From: an uncultured Flavobacteriales bacterium
Lineage (GTDB): Bacteria > Bacteroidota > Bacteroidia > Flavobacteriales_D > Crocinitomicaceae
Length of the DNA stretch: 64,000 nucleotides
Direction of reading: 5' to 3'
Assembly (NCBI GenBank): GCA_913054135.1
Contig: CAJXJK010000014.1
Span: 1-64,000, forward strand
Under the pieces are notes generated by a model, which ran no database searches, had not been told where the DNA came from, and saw only the letters and a program-made list of their open reading frames with translations. How positions within the stretch are numbered: the first letter of the stretch is position 1; each line of letters starts with the position of its first letter. This document shows, piece by piece, positions 15,540 to 30,452 of the stretch. Position numbers and translations under genes: made by a program.

Positions 15540-16856
15540 ATGAAAAAGTTTATAGAAAATATAAAGAACATTTGGAAAGTTGAAGAACTTCGTAATAGAA
15601 TCCTTCTTACTTTAGGTCTTATCCTAATTTATAGAATAGGTTCTTTTATCGTACTTCCTGGTGTGAACCAAGCGGCGTTAGCGAGCGGTTCTAATACTGG
15701 AGGTTTGGTAGGGCTTCTTGACTTATTTGCCGGTGGTGCTTTCTCGAAAGCATCTATTATGGCATTAGGTATCATGCCCTATATCTCTGCATCTATTATT
15801 ATGCAGCTGTTAGGTATGGCCGTTCCGGTTGTTCAAAAAATGCAAAAAGAGGGTGAAAGTGGAAGAAGAAAAATTAATGGTTATACAAGGATCTTAACTA
15901 TTATCATTTGTGCTTTCCAAGCACCATCATACTTATCAATGTATGTGGTACAGCAAGGTGGAGCTTATAATGATACATTTATGTGGTGGACGACTTCAAT
16001 TATGATCTTGATTTCGGGTACTATGTTTGCAATGTGGTTAGGTGAAAGAATTACTGACAAAGGTGTTGGTAATGGTATTTCATTATTAATTACAGTAGGT
16101 ATCCTGGCTAGATTCCCAGGTGCAGTATTTGGTGAGTTCTTAGAAAGAAACACTGGCGCTGGTGGGATGTTCATGTTTATTGTTGAATTGATTGTGTTCT
16201 TCGCAATTATTATGGTGACAGTCCTCATTGTTCAAGGTGTCCGTAGGGTACCTATCAATTACGCAAAGAGAGTTGTAGGAAATGCAAATGCTGCTGAAGG
16301 TGGTCAAAGATCTTACATTCCATTAAAAGTAAACGCTTCTGGTGTAATGCCGATCATCTTTGCTCAAGCAATTATGACCGTACCAACAATGATTGGTCGT
16401 GACTCATGGCTTGGTGCTTTAGCTGACTACAGAAGTTTTGCATACAACTTTGTATTTGCATTGATGATTATCATCTTTACGTATTTCTATACGGCAATTA
16501 CGATCAATCCAAAGCAAATTGCTGATGACTTAAAAAGAAATGGCGGATTCGTTCCAGGTATTAAGCCAGGTACAGAAACTGCAGATTTCATTGATACAAT
16601 ATTATCTAGAATCACATTCCCTGGATCATTCTTCTTAGCAGCAATCGCAATTATTCCTGCTTTCGCAATGTTATTCGGAATTGGTGATGGATTTGCAATG
16701 TTTATGGGTGGTACTTCAATGCTGATTATGGTAGGGGTTGTATTAGATACACTTCAACAAATTGAAACTTATTTATTAAACAGACATTATGACGGTTTAA
16801 TGGAAGGTGGAAAAATTAGAGGTAGAAGAGGTGCTAACGAATTTTCAGGAATGTAA
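15540..16856 (+). CDS. secY: Preprotein translocase subunit SecY
   Basis: The channel subunit of the Sec translocon in the inner membrane, through which the many signal-peptide proteins of this window would pass. The protein has 438 aa with about ten transmembrane segments; characteristic phrases are [30 protein letters not shown] and [10 protein letters not shown], and the cytoplasmic loop has [14 protein letters not shown]. It is placed inside the spc operon as in most bacteria. infA starts 2 nt after its stop codon. The motor subunit SecA is encoded at 30679-34089. Confidence 0.98.
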
Positions 16857-16858
16857 TT

Positions 16859-17077
16859 ATGGCTAAGCAACCTTCAATAGAACAAGACGGAACAATTGTA
16901 GAAGCATTAGGAAATGCAATGTTCCGAGTAGAATTAGAAAACGGGCACGTTATTACTGCTCACATATCAGGTAAGATGAGAATGCATTACATCAAAATAC
17001 TTCCTGGTGATAAAGTGAAATTAGAAATGTCTCCTTACGATTTAACGAAGGGAAGAATAACTTATAGATATAAGTAA
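16859..17077 (+). CDS. infA: Translation initiation factor IF-1
   Basis: IF-1 is an OB-fold protein that occupies the 30S A site during initiation. The 72-aa sequence has the standard phrases [39 protein letters not shown] and the end [15 protein letters not shown]. It sits 2 nt after secY; map and adk, which often come between, are absent. Confidence 0.98.
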
Positions 17078-17085
17078 TAGAATTC

Positions 17086-17130
17086 GAGTAGAATGATTAG
17101 TTTTGCAATCCGAAATTAAAATGTCTACTC
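17086..17130 (+). promoter_or_regulatory. Inverted repeat in the infA-rpmJ spacer
   Basis: Bases 17086-17092 and 17124-17130 form a perfect 7-bp stem (GAGTAGA with TCTACTC) enclosing 31 nt. There is no U-tract, so it is not an intrinsic terminator. It ends 15 nt before the rpmJ start codon and could be a leader structure. Function is unknown. Confidence 0.35.
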
Positions 17131-17145
17131 AAAACAAGAGCAAAA

Positions 17146-17262
17146 ATGAAAGTTAGAGCATCAGTAAAAAAGAGATCTGCAGATTGCAAGATTGTGAAGA
17201 GAAAAGGGAGAGTTTACGTGATAAACAAGAAGAACCCTAAGTTTAAACAAAGACAAGGATAA
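17146..17262 (+). CDS. rpmJ: 50S ribosomal protein L36 (zinc-free type)
   Basis: A 38-aa protein in the gap between infA and rpsM. It starts [20 protein letters not shown] and ends with NPKFKQRQG, which identifies L36. The zinc-binding form has three Cys and one His; here only the Cys at residue 14 remains, while the others are Ser, Asn and Phe. This is the usual C-minus form in Flavobacteriia and removes the need for zinc. Confidence 0.95.
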
Positions 17263-17265
17263 AAT

Positions 17266-17296
17266 AGATCTGAGACGAGAGAGTAATCTCAAATCT
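17266..17296 (+). promoter_or_regulatory. Hairpin upstream of rpsM
   Basis: Bases 17266-17275 and 17287-17296 form a stem of nine pairs with one internal mismatch (AGAT-C-TGAGA with TCTCA-A-ATCT) and an 11-nt loop. It fills most of the 56-nt rpmJ-rpsM spacer and lacks a U-tract. In E. coli the alpha operon is controlled by S4 at a pseudoknot before rpsM, so a control role at this position is plausible but unproven. Confidence 0.4.
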
Positions 17297-17318
17297 TGAA
17301 TCTAAATAATAGAGAATT

Positions 17319-17693
17319 ATGGCTAGAATTGCTGGAATAGATTTACCTAAGAATAAAAGAGGAGTTATTGGTTTAACTTACATCTACGGAATCGGAAATA
17401 GTACTGCTGCACAAATTTTAAAGGAATGCGGTATTGATGAAAACATCAAAGTTGAAGATTGGAATGATGATCAATTAGGAAAACTGAGAGAGATCATCGG
17501 AAACATTAAAGTTGAAGGTGCATTGAGATCAGAAGTTCAATTGAACATTAAGCGTTTGATGGATATCGGATGTTATAGAGGAATTAGACATAGAGCTGGT
17601 CTTCCATTAAGAGGACAAAGAACTAAGAATAACTCTAGAACAAGAAAAGGTAGAAGAAAAACAGTTGCTAACAAAAAGAAAGCTGTTAAATAA
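17319..17693 (+). CDS. rpsM: 30S ribosomal protein S13
   Basis: S13 contacts both tRNAs and forms bridges to the 50S subunit. The 124-aa sequence has [20 protein letters not shown], the conserved [20 protein letters not shown] and a basic tail. It begins the alpha-operon part of the cluster. Unusually for this operon, the next gene rpsK is separated by 123 nt of structured spacer. Confidence 0.98.
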
Positions 17694-17715
17694 TTGATCA
17701 GGCTGTAAGTCTGGT

Positions 17716-17764
17716 TGGATGCTTAGCTCAGCAGGTGGCTGAGGCTCTCGTAGCCCCGAAACCA
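17716..17764 (+). promoter_or_regulatory. Structured rpsM-rpsK spacer
   Basis: In the 123-nt spacer, a 6-bp hairpin with a 5-nt loop lies at 17727-17743 (CTCAGC with GCTGAG). A second 4-bp hairpin at 17743-17755 (GGCT with AGCC) shares one base with the first. A short GGTT...AACC pair could close both. The region is GC-richer than its surroundings. It resembles a leader RNA more than a gene; no tRNA fold could be built. Confidence 0.4.
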
Positions 17765-17816
17765 TGATAACTAAGTTGAAAACCGATAAGACAACAAAGT
17801 CAAAAGCTAAAGAAAA

Positions 17817-18203
17817 ATGGCAAAAACAGGAAAAGCAAAAAAGAAAAGTGTCAAAGTTGATGCAGTAGGTGAAGCGCATATTCAAGCGTCTTTCAACAAC
17901 ATCATCATTTCACTAACTAATAAGTCAGGACAAGTAATTTCTTGGTCTTCGGCTGGTAAAATGGGATTCAGAGGTTCTAAAAAGAATACTCCTTATGCTG
18001 CACAAGTTGCTGCTGAAGAGTGTACTAAAGAAGCTGCTGAACTTGGATTGAGAAAAGTTAAGGTTTATGTAAAAGGACCTGGTTCTGGAAGAGAGTCTGC
18101 TATCAGATCTATCCACAACAATGGAGTAGAAGTAACAGAAATCATTGATGTTACTCCAATGCCACATAACGGTTGTCGTCCTCCTAAGAGAAGAAGAGTA
18201 TAA
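17817..18203 (+). CDS. rpsK: 30S ribosomal protein S11
   Basis: S11 forms the 30S platform near the E site and the Shine-Dalgarno cleft. The 128-aa protein contains [32 protein letters not shown] and the conserved end [18 protein letters not shown] use the ATG at 17817 ([11 protein letters not shown]), consistent with the family. Confidence 0.98.
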
Positions 18204-18232
18204 TCAATTTATATATTAATAGATAAGACCAT

Positions 18233-18257
18233 TGGCATAAGGTGTAATTCCTAGCCA
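18233..18257 (+). promoter_or_regulatory. Weak hairpin in the rpsK-rpsD spacer
   Basis: TGGC at 18233-18236 pairs with GCCA at 18254-18257, and AGG at 18240-18242 with CCT at 18250-18252, separated by a small internal loop. It lies in a 76-nt spacer before rpsD. The stem is short and may be chance. Confidence 0.25.
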
Positions 18258-18279
18258 CAGATCTAAAAAACAAACAGAA

Positions 18280-18885
18280 ATGGCAAGATATACAGGACCA
18301 AAGTCCAAAATTGCAAGAAGATTTAGAGACCCGATTTTCGGAGATGACAAATCATTAGAAAGAAAAAATTATCCTCCAGGACAACACGGTCCTAACAAAA
18401 GAAGAGGAAAACAGTCAGAGTACTCTGTACAGTTAATGGAAAAGCAAAAAGCTAAGTATACTTACGGTATCTTAGAAAAGCAATTCTCTAACTTATTCAA
18501 GAAAGCTTCAAGAATGAAAGGTATTACAGGTGAAAACTTGTTAGTTCTTTGTGAATCTAGATTGGATAATACTGCTTACAGATTAGGGTTATCAAACACT
18601 CGTTCTGGTGCAAGACAATTAGTTTCTCACAGACACATCACTGTTAATGGTGAAATCTGTAACATTCCTTCTTACTCATTACGTCCTGGGGATGTAGTTT
18701 CAGTAAGAGAGAAGTCTAAATCAATGGAAGTTATTTCTGAAGCATTAGCTGCTAAAGAAACAGGTTTCGACTGGTTAGATTGGGATTCAGCAACAATGTC
18801 TGGTAAATTCATGAACATTCCGAACAGAGAAATGATTCCTGAAAATATCAAAGAACAGTTGATTGTCGAGCTTTACTCGAAATAA
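18280..18885 (+). CDS. rpsD: 30S ribosomal protein S4
   Basis: S4 starts 30S assembly at the five-way junction of 16S rRNA and is the alpha-operon repressor in E. coli. The 201-aa sequence begins [20 protein letters not shown] without the N-terminal zinc cysteines, and the S4 RNA-binding domain shows [20 protein letters not shown] and [20 protein letters not shown]. Structured spacers on both sides are possible control sites. Confidence 0.98.
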
Positions 18886-18913
18886 TAACATTAGAACATA
18901 GTTCTTAGACTTA

Positions 18914-19072
18914 GACAAAAGCTACGTATATTTGCGCAACTTTTGTCTTTCGTCTTTTAGCTAGTCTATATTACGAAGCAAATAAATTAATAACTAAATA
19001 ATAACCATTGGCTGCTCGCCAAAGGATTTGTCTGACTTCTTCAGTCTTTCAAATCGCGCAACTTGCAGACAA
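18914..19072 (+). promoter_or_regulatory. Structured leader of rpoA with possible internal promoter
   Basis: The 205-nt gap between rpsD and rpoA contains, in order: an 8-bp stem with an 18-nt loop (18914-18921 with 18940-18947), with a TATATTTG -7-like box at 18927-18934 inside the loop; a 5-bp hairpin TTGGC/GCCAA at about 19008-19022; and a 7-bp stem TTGTCTG (19028-19034) with CAGACAA (19066-19072) just before the rpoA start. No U-tracts are present. A secondary promoter plus a folded leader for rpoA-rplQ is a reasonable reading; the -33 element is not clear. Confidence 0.4.
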
Positions 19073-19090
19073 TTAAAAAAGAAGAAAAAC

Positions 19091-20083
19091 ATGGCTATTT
19101 TAGATTTCCAAAAACCAGACAAGGTAATAATGATCGAATCAGATGACTTCACAGGTCAATTTGAATTCAGACCATTAGAGCCAGGATACGGTATTACAGT
19201 TGGTAACGCATTAAGAAGAATTTTACTTTCTTCATTAGAAGGATTTGCAATTTCTGCAGTGAAAATTGACGGAGTTGATCACGAATTCTCTACTATCAAG
19301 GGTGTGACTGATGATGTTACTGAGATGGTGTTGAACATGAAACAAGTTCGTTTCAAACAACAAATCGAAGGAACTGATTCTGAAAAAGTAATCGTTTCTG
19401 TTTCAGGACAAGATACATTAACTGCTGGAGACATAGGAAAATTCACTACTGCATTTCAAGTACTAAACCCAGATTTAGTTATTTGTAGAATGGAACCTTC
19501 AGTGAAAATCAATATGGAAGTTGAGATCATCAAAGGAAGAGGATATGTTCCTGCTGATGAGAACAAGAGCGCTAACGCACCAATCGGTACAATCGCAATT
19601 GATTCAATCTTTACTCCAATCAAAAATGTAAAATACACAGTTGAAAATTACCGTGTTGAGCAAAAAACGGATTACGAAAAATTAATTTTCGACATCCAAT
19701 CTGATGGATCAATTACTCCTAAAGATGCTTTACAAGAAGCAGCTAAGATTTTGATTCACCACTTTATGTTGTTCTCTGATGAAAGAATCACTCTAGATAC
19801 TGAAATCAAATCAGAAACTGAAGAGTTTGATGAGACTTCATTACACATGAGACAATTATTAAAATCTAAATTAGTTGATCTTGACCTTTCAGTTAGAGCA
19901 TTAAACTGCTTAAAAGCTGCAGATGTTGAGACATTAGGTGATTTAGTTTCTTATAACAAAAACGACTTGTTGAAATTTAGAAACTTCGGTAAGAAATCTT
20001 TAACTGAGCTAGAAGATCTAGTTGAGTCTAAAGGATTAGCTTTCGGAATGAACGTTTCTAAATACAAATTAGACAAAGAGTAA
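19091..20083 (+). CDS. rpoA: DNA-directed RNA polymerase subunit alpha
   Basis: Alpha forms the dimer on which RNA polymerase assembles, and its C-terminal domain contacts regulators and promoter DNA. I choose the ATG at 19091 ([20 protein letters not shown]), giving 330 aa. A TTG further upstream (19028) is in frame, but it lies inside the structured leader. The N-terminal domain has the dimerisation region [20 protein letters not shown]. The C-terminal domain includes [20 protein letters not shown] and [20 protein letters not shown]. Confidence 0.97.
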
Positions 20084-20087
20084 ATAA

Positions 20088-20186
20088 AATCTTTCTTTTG
20101 CTCCCAGTACACACTACTGGGAGCAGAGAAAATGACTCGTTTCGAGTCTTCCCAAAATCCTTGTGAGGGAAGTGAATAGAAAGATT
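20088..20186 (+). promoter_or_regulatory. Predicted four-way-junction RNA in the rpoA-rplQ spacer
   Basis: A 9-bp stem (20088-20096 with 20178-20186) encloses three hairpins. The first is a perfect 10-bp stem (20100-20109 with 20115-20124) with a 5-nt loop. The second is 6 bp (20134-20139 with 20143-20148) with a 3-nt loop. The third is 5 bp (20149-20153 with 20167-20171) with a 13-nt loop. All pairs are Watson-Crick. No U-tract follows, and rplQ starts 67 nt downstream. This is the best candidate cis-regulatory RNA in the window; I do not recognise it as a known family. Confidence 0.6.
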
Positions 20187-20252
20187 AAGGTAAAGCAAAT
20201 AGTAAACAATCGGTTAGTTCTAAAGCAGGTTAATCGGTAAAAAAATTAAACA

Positions 20253-20726
20253 ATGAGACACGGTAAAAAATTCAACCACTTAGGAAGAACAGCTTCTCAC
20301 AGAAAAGCAATGTTATCTAACATGGCTGCTTCATTAATTGAGCACAAAAGAATCAACACAACTTTAGCAAAAGCGAAAGCTTTAAGATCAGTTGTTGAAC
20401 CTTTGATTACAAAATCAAAAACTGATTCAACTCACTCAAGAAGATTGGCGTTTAAAACATTAGGTAACAAATATGCTGTTACTGAGTTGTTCAGAGAAAT
20501 CGCTCCAAAAGTTGGTGAAAGACAAGGTGGATACACTAGAATCATCAGAACTGGAAAGAGATTAGGTGATAATGCTGAGATGTGTATGATCGAGCTTGTT
20601 GATTTCAACGAAATCTACGGAGCTGGTGAAGCTAAGAAAACAACTAGAAGATCAAGAAGAGGTGGTTCTGGTGCTGCTGCGAAAGCTGCTCCAAAAGCTG
20701 CTGCGAAGAAAGAAGAAGAAGAGTAA
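20253..20726 (+). CDS. rplQ: 50S ribosomal protein L17
   Basis: L17 lies near the tunnel exit. The first 120 or so residues are the conserved core ([20 protein letters not shown], then [20 protein letters not shown], and [20 protein letters not shown]). The remaining C-terminal part is an Ala/Lys-rich, low-complexity tail, making 157 aa in total, a common extension in Bacteroidota. It is the last gene of the superoperon and is followed by an intrinsic terminator about 45 nt downstream. Confidence 0.98.
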
Positions 20727-20770
20727 AAATTGGCGCAGAAAAGCCAATTTTATATTCCGATATATTATTG

Positions 20771-20802
20771 AAAAGGGAATCACATGGTGGTTCCCTTTTT
20801 TT
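20771..20802 (+). terminator. Terminator of the ribosomal superoperon
   Basis: An 11-bp stem (20773-20783 with 20787-20797, one G-U pair) with a 3-nt loop runs directly into a run of T. It follows rplQ and separates it from carA. Confidence 0.85.
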
Positions 20803-20949
20803 GTTTTAAATATGAATTCTGAATTAGAAGAAGACATCTTCAAAAAAAACTTTCAAAAAAACGACAACAGTTTTCAACAATCTGCATTCTATCCAATCCT
20901 TTAATCGTAACTTTACTTCCCGATTACTAATTACAGTTAAAATCCAAAC

Positions 20950-22059
20950 ATGGACAACAAACCTGCAGTACTCGTTTTAGCTGACGGTACAGTTTTTAAA
21001 GGAAACGCAATCGGTAAAATCGGAACAACAACCGGTGAAATTGCATTCAATACTGGGATGACCGGTTATCAAGAAGTCTTTACAGATCCATCTTATCACA
21101 AACAAATTCTTGTCATGAACACTGCACACATAGGTAACTATGGAGTGAAAGATGATGAAGTAGAATCTGACGGGATGAAAATCGCAGGCTTAGTAACTAA
21201 GAAGTTTTCACCAAACTTTTCAAGGTATAATGGTGATGGTTCTTTACAGGATTTCATGGAGAATGATAACTGTACAGGTATTTCTGATATAGATACAAGG
21301 GCTTTAGTAAGACACATTAGAAATGCTGGAGCAATGAATGCTATCATCTCTTCTGATAATTTAGATATCGATAGTTTAAAAGCTGAATTGGCTAAAGTTC
21401 CTTCTATGGAAGGTCTAGAGTTATCTTCAGAAGTAACAACAAAAGAAGCATACACATCAGGAGATGAGAATTCTGATTTCAGAGTTTCTTTGTTAGATAT
21501 TGGAGTTAAGAATAGCATTGTTAGCTGCTTGGTAGATAGAGGATGCTATGTCAAAGTATTCCCAATGAACTCATCTGTTGAAGACATGATGGCGTTTGAA
21601 CCAAATGGATTCATGTTGTCAAACGGACCTGGTGATCCATCAGCAATGCCAGAGACAATTGAATTAGTAAAGAAGATAGTGAATACTGATATACCGGTTT
21701 TCGGAATTTGTTTAGGTCACCAAGTATTGGCATTAAGTCAAGGTCTATCAACTGAGAAAATGCATAACGGTCATAGAGGAATCAACCATCCTGTGAAAAA
21801 TTTATTGACAGGTAAGGGAGAAGTAACTTCTCAAAATCACGGTTTTGTTGTTTCAAAAGACTCAATTGATTCAAACCCTGAAATTGAACTAACTCACATT
21901 CATTTAAATGATGACACGGTTGCAGGAATCAGAATGAAGAACAAAAAAGTATTTTCTGTTCAATATCATCCTGAAGCTTCTGCCGGACCACATGATTCTA
22001 GATATCTTTTCGATCAGTTCGTAGAGAATATGAAGACGGTGAAAGCTGAAATGGTTTAA
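20950..22059 (+). CDS. carA: Carbamoyl-phosphate synthase small chain
   Basis: The glutaminase subunit that passes ammonia to CarB for carbamoyl phosphate, the precursor of pyrimidines and arginine. The 369-aa protein has the CPSase small-chain N domain (GEIAFNTGMTGYQEVFTDPS) and a class I glutamine amidotransferase domain with the nucleophile Cys at residue 254 in GICLGHQV and the catalytic His in QYHPEAS. CarB is not in the window; separate carA and carB are normal in this phylum. The place between rplQ and eno is a conserved arrangement. The 147-nt stretch after the upstream terminator shows no convincing promoter. Confidence 0.97.
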   Translation: MDNKPAVLVLADGTVFKGNAIGKIGTTTGEIAFNTGMTGYQEVFTDPSYHKQILVMNTAHIGNYGVKDDEVESDGMKIAGLVTKKFSPNFSRYNGDGSLQDFMENDNCTGISDIDTRALVRHIRNAGAMNAIISSDNLDIDSLKAELAKVPSMEGLELSSEVTTKEAYTSGDENSDFRVSLLDIGVKNSIVSCLVDRGCYVKVFPMNSSVEDMMAFEPNGFMLSNGPGDPSAMPETIELVKKIVNTDIPVFGICLGHQVLALSQGLSTEKMHNGHRGINHPVKNLLTGKGEVTSQNHGFVVSKDSIDSNPEIELTHIHLNDDTVAGIRMKNKKVFSVQYHPEASAGPHDSRYLFDQFVENMKTVKAEMV

Positions 22060-29153: not shown

Positions 29154-29375
29154 ATGTATTGGACGTTGGAATTAGCATCATATTTAGAAGATGCACCTTG
29201 GCCAGCAGCAAAAGACGAGCTAATCGATTTTGCTATGAGATGTGGAGCACCTTTAGAGGTAGTTGAGAATCTACAAGAGATCGAAGACGAAGGAGAGACA
29301 TACGAAAGTATCGAAGAAATTTGGCCGGATTATCCCACCAAAGAAGACTTCTTCTTCAACGAAGACGAATATTAA
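29154..29375 (+). CDS. DUF2795 family acidic small protein
   Basis: A 73-aa, strongly acidic protein (MYWTLELASYLEDAPWPAAK, then ELIDFAMRCGAPLEVVENLQ). It matches the DUF2795 family, which is widespread and short in Bacteroidota, with no proven function. The C-terminal half is rich in Glu, Asp and aromatic residues. It has its own promoter and terminator, so it is a single-gene unit. The conserved WPA..ELI...GAPLEV pattern supports that it is real. Confidence 0.85.
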   Translation: MYWTLELASYLEDAPWPAAKDELIDFAMRCGAPLEVVENLQEIEDEGETYESIEEIWPDYPTKEDFFFNEDEY

Positions 29376-29379
29376 TTCA

Positions 29380-29410
29380 AATCCCGACCTTAGAGTCGGG
29401 ATTTTTTTTT
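29380..29410. terminator. Terminator between convergent genes
   Basis: A 9-bp stem (AATCCCGAC with GTCGGGATT) and a 6-nt loop are followed by a run of T on the + strand. It ends the DUF2795 transcript. The run overlaps the stop codon of the convergent T9SS gene, whose own termination here is less certain because no comparable T-run is seen on the other strand. Confidence 0.8.
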
Positions 29411-30452
29411 ACTCTAAAATTAAACGATAATTACTTGTTTTAGAATCTTGTGATAATTGTAAGATGTAGATTCCACTTCTAATTTCACTGAAGTCTATTG
29501 CGGTTCCGAAAAGATAATTTTCATCAAAATACAATTCGGCGCCATTCATATTGCGCAATATCAACTGCATATTTTCCTGAGAGTTACTGTTAATGGTTAT
29601 CAATCCACTTGAAGGGTTTGGATAAATTGAAACTTCGAAATCTAATTCAGCAACAGATAAACAGCTTACACATGCTGTGTCTTTAATAAAACATCCGTTG
29701 GCATCTGTTATTGTTCCTTCATAGCATCCATCACTTAATCCTCCCCAAGTAGTGTTTGAGGCTGAGTCACCAGTGCCTAAGTTGGTCCAGGTATATTCGT
29801 AATCAGGTGTACCACCTGCACCCGACATAAAAACCACCCCGCTTGTTCCTCCTGAGCAAGGCTCAAAATCAAAATCAGCAAAGGTTAATGCGGGAGGAGA
29901 TAACACATCAATATCAAAAACATTTGAACAACCGTTTTCATCATTAATTGTGATAGAATAAGTTCCATCAGCTAATCCTCCAATGCTGTCTTGCCCAACT
30001 CCATTCATTCCATTTGGATTTGGTGCCCAGTAATACGAAATGAAATTATAATCTCCCGTGGCATTATATACTGTGTCCACTTCAATTGAGCCTGATTCAA
30101 TATTTTGACATATGAGATTTGTAATTGAATAGTCAATATCAATTTGATCAGGAGCATCAAGGTAGACAGAGTCTTCTAATTCACATCCCATATTGTCTTC
30201 AACGTGGACATAATACCATCCTTCTAGTAAATTGTTGACAGTGTTTGTCAGGTTCAATTGATTACCTAGAGAATCGGTAATTGTATAGATGTCACCTCCA
30301 TTGCCTCCGGTCGTTATGGCCGTCAAAGAACCATCACTGAAGGCATAACAGATCGGATTTGATGAAGTAATTGTAAGATCATAGCCACTGCACTGACTAT
30401 TGGCGCAGTGAAGCGTAAGGAAACTAAGAGTCAAAAGAAATAACTTTTTCAT
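29409..30452 (-). CDS. SprB-module secreted protein with type A T9SS sorting domain
   Basis: A secreted protein of 347 aa if started at the ATG at 30452 (MKKLFLLTLSFLTLHCANSQ); six more upstream codons are open. A signal peptide is followed by three SprB-like modules with GG.. and DENGC/DANGC signatures. The last ~75 residues are a type A sorting domain (YPNPSSGLITINSNSQENMQ ... IRSGIYILQL) that directs export through the type IX secretion system and anchoring to the surface. The three modules are closely similar to a block in the larger protein at 48810-51455, which carries the other sorting-domain type. The role is probably surface adhesion; no ligand can be predicted. Confidence 0.85.
   Translation of the reverse strand: MKKLFLLTLSFLTLHCANSQCSGYDLTITSSNPICYAFSDGSLTAITTGGNGGDIYTITDSLGNQLNLTNTVNNLLEGWYYVHVEDNMGCELEDSVYLDAPDQIDIDYSITNLICQNIESGSIEVDTVYNATGDYNFISYYWAPNPNGMNGVGQDSIGGLADGTYSITINDENGCSNVFDIDVLSPPALTFADFDFEPCSGGTSGVVFMSGAGGTPDYEYTWTNLGTGDSASNTTWGGLSDGCYEGTITDANGCFIKDTACVSCLSVAELDFEVSIYPNPSSGLITINSNSQENMQLILRNMNGAELYFDENYLFGTAIDFSEIRSGIYILQLSQDSKTSNYRLILE

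Follow-up and report, generated by a model that had tools for sequence, protein, structure and literature searches.

A conserved leader RNA directly upstream of rplQ within a single Crocinitomicaceae clade

Comparative sequence analysis reveals that, in a single clade of Crocinitomicaceae, the spacer between rpoA and rplQ carries a real and conserved leader RNA of rplQ that is not catalogued. We refer to this RNA as type A. The example described here lies in a 64,000-nucleotide stretch of DNA from an uncultured Flavobacteriales bacterium (the window; all positions refer to it), where the operon order is rpsM-rpsK-rpsD-rpoA-rplQ, the rpoA stop codon occupies 20081–20083 and the AUG of rplQ is at 20253. 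An initial annotation had drawn a four-way-junction RNA at 20088–20186, in which a 9-bp closing stem holds three hairpins. The conserved RNA is displaced downstream relative to this structure, as the following features of the locus show.

20088–20148, forward strand: species-specific, unconserved part of the four-way-junction structure; it folds, and its closing stem has no counterpart in 14 relatives
20088–20096, 20100–20124 and 20134–20148, forward strand: sub-parts of the species-specific region, namely the 5′ arm of the closing stem, a 10-bp hairpin and a 6-bp hairpin
20146–20243, forward strand: conserved type A leader of rplQ, made up of the P1 hairpin, a probable pseudoknot and the P2 hairpin, with a covariance-model match of 101 bits and covariation in 15 species
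20148–20172, forward strand: P1 hairpin of 6 bp (the third hairpin of the four-way junction), arms 20148–20153 and 20167–20172, loop AAAAUCCUUGUGA
20159–20190, forward strand: probable H-type pseudoknot helix, CCUUG (20159–20163) with UAAGG (20186–20190), A-rich connecting loop 20173–20185
20210–20237, forward strand: P2 hairpin of 8 bp, arms 20210–20217 and 20230–20237, conserved loop UUCUAAAGCAGG (20218–20229)
20253–20726, forward strand: rplQ (ribosomal protein L17), presumed regulated gene, open reading frame of 157 amino acids
20770–20800, forward strand: intrinsic-terminator-like hairpin 3′ of rplQ, 14-pair stem followed by a T-run

The type A leader is about 100 nt long, starts at P1 and reaches almost to the rplQ start codon. 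Its core reads YYUCCC-AAAAUCCUUGUGA-GGGAAR, followed by an A-rich linker, UUAAGGUA, a variable A/U-rich linker and the 8-bp hairpin around UNCUAWAGNAGG, the consensus of the P2 loop in the alignment of 15 sequences. Across the 15 species, both-sided changes occur in five of the six pairs of P1 and in seven of the eight pairs of P2. The CCUUG/UAAGG helix can pair in all 15 sequences; four of its five pairs are invariant and one changes from GU to AU. The pseudoknot is thus likely to form, with pairs so nearly invariant that covariation is no proof of it. Its layout of a 6-bp stem, a 5-nt loop, a 5-bp stem, a 3-nt loop and an A-rich third loop is what we take to be that of a standard H-type pseudoknot. 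The 3′ edge of P2 lies 15 nt from the rplQ AUG in the window and 13–16 nt from it in 13 of the 15 species, with an A-rich stretch in between; the distance from leader to AUG is 44 and 94 nt in the remaining two species (L004 and L006).

RNAalifold, applied to the 15-sequence alignment, recovers the two hairpins, and 12 of 17 pairs carry double changes. We compared the named structure (P1, pseudoknot and P2; 19 pairs) with shuffled alignments, which preserve the make-up of the columns and not the relatedness of the 15 sequences: (i) 93.0% of the cells are paired, against 79.4% in the shuffles, (ii) 44 cells are changed on both sides, against 14.3, with double changes at 12 of the 19 pairs, and (iii) the covariation score is 0.501, against 0.232. 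Each of these measures is reached by 0 or 1 of 500 shuffles, and pairing falls to about 52% when the partners are slid by one column.

We located rplQ in 143 of 149 related genomes and in 80 public contigs, and read rpoA–rplQ spacers. Covariance-model searches, performed with strict filters that may miss divergent copies, gave 15 strong matches (83–102 bits) among 240 genomes of the family and the identical 15 among 399 genomes of the order; these 15 matched sequences are those from which the model was built. All of them lie directly before rplQ on the same strand. Three public contigs also match the model, Crocinitomix catalasitica ATCC 23190 (L033), Crocinitomicaceae bacterium Bin_13 (L038) and a Flavobacteriales MAG (L032), and their spacers are identical to those of species already in the set, a match on which the assignment of the family to Crocinitomicaceae rests. 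In a tree of RpoA and L17, the 15 type A species form a single clade (support 99/98), so that one origin of the leader is sufficient. Many other genomes of the family have only a short gap between rpoA and rplQ, with no leader. A weak match was obtained in one further genome (G109, E 0.084). Additional copies considered at 29374–29468 on the reverse strand of the window and in another genome (G084) were rejected as weak matches that look like chance AT-rich hairpins.

No family of Rfam 15 reaches its threshold anywhere in the window, and none matches the type A element at E values up to 5 in the interval 16800–21000. As far as Rfam is concerned, the early suspicion that the RNA belongs to no described family has been borne out. 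The literature that we searched describes no L17 leader in Bacteroidota and contains nothing more specific on the L17 binding site.

The leader is intergenic within the rpoA–rplQ unit. Since the terminator-like hairpin follows rplQ, the leader has a single target gene, and rplQ closes the transcription unit. On the forward strand of the window, the rpoA–rplQ gap contains no terminator-like site and its hairpins are not followed by a U-tract, as had been noted initially; a terminator at 20100–20124 was rejected for this reason, though some relatives have terminator-like hairpins there. Promoter-like boxes ahead of the leader are found only in L004, L006 and L015. In L004 and L006, a long perfect terminator-like hairpin and then the promoter-like box TATCTTTG (TAnnTTTG type) stand between rpoA and the leader, which suggests that these two species transcribe rplQ as a unit of its own, in which case the leader would be a true 5′ UTR there.

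We propose that the type A element is a cis-acting autoregulatory leader by which free L17 represses the translation of rplQ, a reading that we consider the most likely one and, on balance, somewhat more probable than not. When L17 is in excess over 23S rRNA, free L17 would bind and stabilise the fold of P1, pseudoknot and P2 just 5′ of the rplQ start codon, and the A-rich unpaired initiation region, on which Bacteroidota depend, would then be blocked or kept in an unproductive complex (30S entrapment). As a result, translation of rplQ would drop while the upstream rpoA would remain unaffected. Within this model, we infer co-transcription of the leader with rplQ, the pseudoknot, L17 as ligand and repression at the level of translation. 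According to the one-gene rule of Eckert and Weinberg, a sole regulated gene points to its own product as the ligand (PMC7247131); rplQ is the only gene between leader and terminator, and L17 is thus the likely ligand. Pairing with a Shine-Dalgarno sequence is unused in Bacteroidota (PMC10931766), so that occlusion of the A-rich region or 30S entrapment would be the natural mode of repression. Four observations count against the L17 model: (i) the leader has no convincing rRNA likeness at a known L17 site, its best likeness being to helix 71, (ii) the many members of the family that lack the leader imply that such control is dispensable, (iii) the leader stands far from the AUG in two of the 15 species, and (iv) the pairs of the pseudoknot scarcely vary. 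Resemblance to the rRNA site of the ligand is frequent among ribosomal-protein leaders but is no requirement.

Several described RNAs resemble type A in part. Eckert & Weinberg (2020, PMC7247131) predicted L17 r-leaders for Actinobacteria and Proteobacteria; like type A, they are structured RNAs directly before rplQ, with rplQ as the only regulated gene and L17 as the presumed ligand, but they occur in other phyla. No L17 family is among the Rfam 15 matches of type A up to E 5, a release that may not contain that family. The L17DE motif is likewise a conserved RNA linked to rplQ, but it lies downstream of the gene and is found in Firmicutes only (PMC7247131). The S4-Flavobacteria r-leader (RF03141) belongs to the same bacterial order and is a leader in the same operon, before rpsD; it differs in that it regulates rpsD and consists of a 33-nt single hairpin. 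It matches before rpsD in three of our loci (L069, L086 and L091) and gives no match in the window interval 16800–21000 at E up to 5. The Alpha_RBS of E. coli (RF00140), the S4 operator of the alpha operon, shares with type A a pseudoknot (a probable one in type A) beside a start codon in the same operon and a possible entrapment mechanism, whereas it is located at rpsM rather than rplQ and has another structure.

Other leaders occupy the same position in related bacteria. In other genera of Crocinitomicaceae, the last ~110 nt before rplQ form a type B leader, represented by 24 sequences (loci L014, L018, L020, L021, L028, L030, L062 and L091 and 16 of L128–L167) of the consensus UAGUAUCGCA...UCGURAUAGGUGRYU...GCGAUAC...RYUAACCGUUACUUACGAAAUU. 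Two of its helices are apparently interleaved in a pseudoknot-like manner, and the rpoA stop codon marks the beginning of the 5′ arm. In Flavobacteriaceae, 44 loci (L036 and L044–L110) carry a type C leader in the last ~60 nt before rplQ, a hairpin AUCAUAUUUUGCUCCUC...GAGUUUGGUAGCAAGAUGAU whose outer and inner stems covary. Compensatory pairs are present in both types, and two examples of each, scanned against Rfam, gave no match. In their predicted structures, types A, B and C are unrelated to one another, and all three stand at the same position before rplQ. Unrelated leaders at one position are expected if the regulation was kept while the RNA was replaced.

A second candidate leader precedes rpsD at 18221–18264 of the window (AGAUAAGACCAUUGGC...GCCACAGAUCU). 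Its flanks AUAAGACCAUUG and (C)AGAUCUAAAA are common to eight of 13 type A relatives, and its hairpin arms change in step (UGGC/GCCA, UGAC/GUCA and UGGU/ACCA). This candidate differs from S4-Flavobacteria, which the type B species carry at that place. With three unrelated rplQ leaders at one position in one order, and the rpsD leader changing too, these operons represent a compact case of regulatory-RNA replacement in which the regulated gene stays constant.

The main rival to autoregulation by L17 is that S4 binds the leader, which would then serve as an additional S4 operator, located before rplQ like the one proposed for E. coli. Repression by S4 in E. coli extends beyond the first three cistrons to bL17 (PMC10931766), the operon order of the window matches that of E. 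coli, and the S4 operator of E. coli takes the form of a pseudoknot. Whether bL17 has an operator of its own between rpoA and rplQ has been a question since 1984, when, as cited in PMC10931766, the E. coli alpha operon was suggested to contain another S4 site in front of rplQ, a site that according to the same source was never demonstrated. Against S4, no obvious motif is common to the rplQ leader and the rpsD leaders of the same species; the rpsD leader is missing in five of the 13 relatives examined while the type A rplQ leader is kept, and the known S4 leader of the order gives no match at this locus. We regard S4 as an unlikely ligand. The type A clade offers the candidate operator as a separate and conserved element of about 100 nt, on which L17 and S4 are directly comparable.

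Alternatively, the element could determine how much RNA polymerase alpha is made relative to L17, through RNA processing, protection of the rpoA transcript end or attenuation between the two genes, without any ribosomal protein as ligand. In all species a strong hairpin, whose sequence varies, lies between the rpoA stop codon and the leader, several of these hairpins are terminator-like, and the relatives without a leader have only the short gap. Such a role would, however, require neither the invariant loop bases nor the fixed place beside the rplQ AUG, the variable hairpins lie outside the conserved part, and the forward strand of the window lacks a U-tract after them. We give this explanation a small chance, comparable to that of S4 binding.

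The likeness to helix 71 raises the possibility that, by imitating this part of 23S rRNA, the leader is bound by a different ribosomal or rRNA-reading factor. The rRNA genes of the organism itself were not found in its draft assembly, and we therefore used the 23S rRNA of a genus-mate (G001). Taken together with the adjoining bases (AAAU-CCUUGU and UAAGGUA), both strands of the pseudoknot match the two strands of its helix-71 hairpin (UCCUAAGGUAGCGAAAUUCCUUGUCGGG) in permuted order. The flank score is equalled by 0 of 2000 dinucleotide shuffles of the rRNA and approached within one by five of them, for a pattern that was picked after the match had been seen; we treat the likeness as no more than a lead. 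The rpsD leader of the window contains a stretch of comparable appearance that is not preserved in relatives, indicating that such rRNA matches arise easily, and types B and C do not carry the helix-71 bases in the same structural context. Imitation of helix 71 by the rpsD leader itself was ruled out, as relatives do not keep those bases. To our knowledge, helix 71 is not contacted by L17. We consider binding of such a factor to the type A leader improbable. The same low estimate holds for the wider scenario in which the rplQ leader imitates helix 71 in circularly permuted form (AAAU(U)CCUUGU with UAAGGUA), control of rplQ falls not to L17 acting through its own rRNA site but to a factor that recognises the 50S subunit at its subunit interface, and structurally unrelated rplQ leaders have been used at least three times in Flavobacteriales.

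The four-way junction itself is well formed in this genome. The initial annotation had the coordinates, the flanking genes (rpoA ending at 20083, rplQ starting at 20253) and the stems right, and RNA folding reproduces the 99-nt fold with its closing stem and hairpins of about 10, 6 and 5 bp. The minimum free energy of 20088–20186 is −40.2 kcal/mol, whereas dinucleotide shuffles average −20.6 ± 3.1 (z −6.3), none of the 200 being as stable. Despite this high stability, the junction is hardly credible as the functional unit, because its 9-bp closing stem is present in only one of the 15 homologous loci, its first two hairpins are unconserved and its boundary at 20186 cuts through the conserved element. 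In the other 14 relatives, the region of the closing stem (5′ side against the linker after P1) offers 5–7 contiguous pairs, the level of shuffled sequences. The 10-bp and 6-bp hairpins are without homologues at the sequence level; each relative has one or more strong hairpins of unrelated sequence in their place, and several of these are followed by a U-rich run or are terminator-like. Of the four-way junction, only the 3′-terminal 41 nt (20146–20186) fall within the conserved structure, which extends 57 nt beyond it, to 20243. The presence of a structured RNA before rplQ was thus recognised correctly, whereas its borders and architecture were not. Equally, the proposal of an rplQ leader bound by L17 or another ribosomal protein is well supported for the class of element, a covarying structure in 15 species that always lies directly before rplQ, the last gene before the terminator. 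The four-way junction, by contrast, falls to the refuting condition set in the initial annotation, since its closing stem occurs in this genome alone. A repeat or mobile element was ruled out, as the sequence is present in a single copy in the 4.05-Mb genome.

Two further sites were noted elsewhere in the operon. The Alpha_RBS family of E. coli gives a sub-threshold match at 17264–17351 of the window (22.2 bits, compared to a cut-off of 38), just 5′ of rpsM and in part overlapping the start of its coding sequence. Within the 206 nt that separate rpsD from rpoA, TATATTTG at 18927–18934 matches the Bacteroidota promoter box TAnnTTTG and, given this box upstream, rpoA may be driven by its own promoter.
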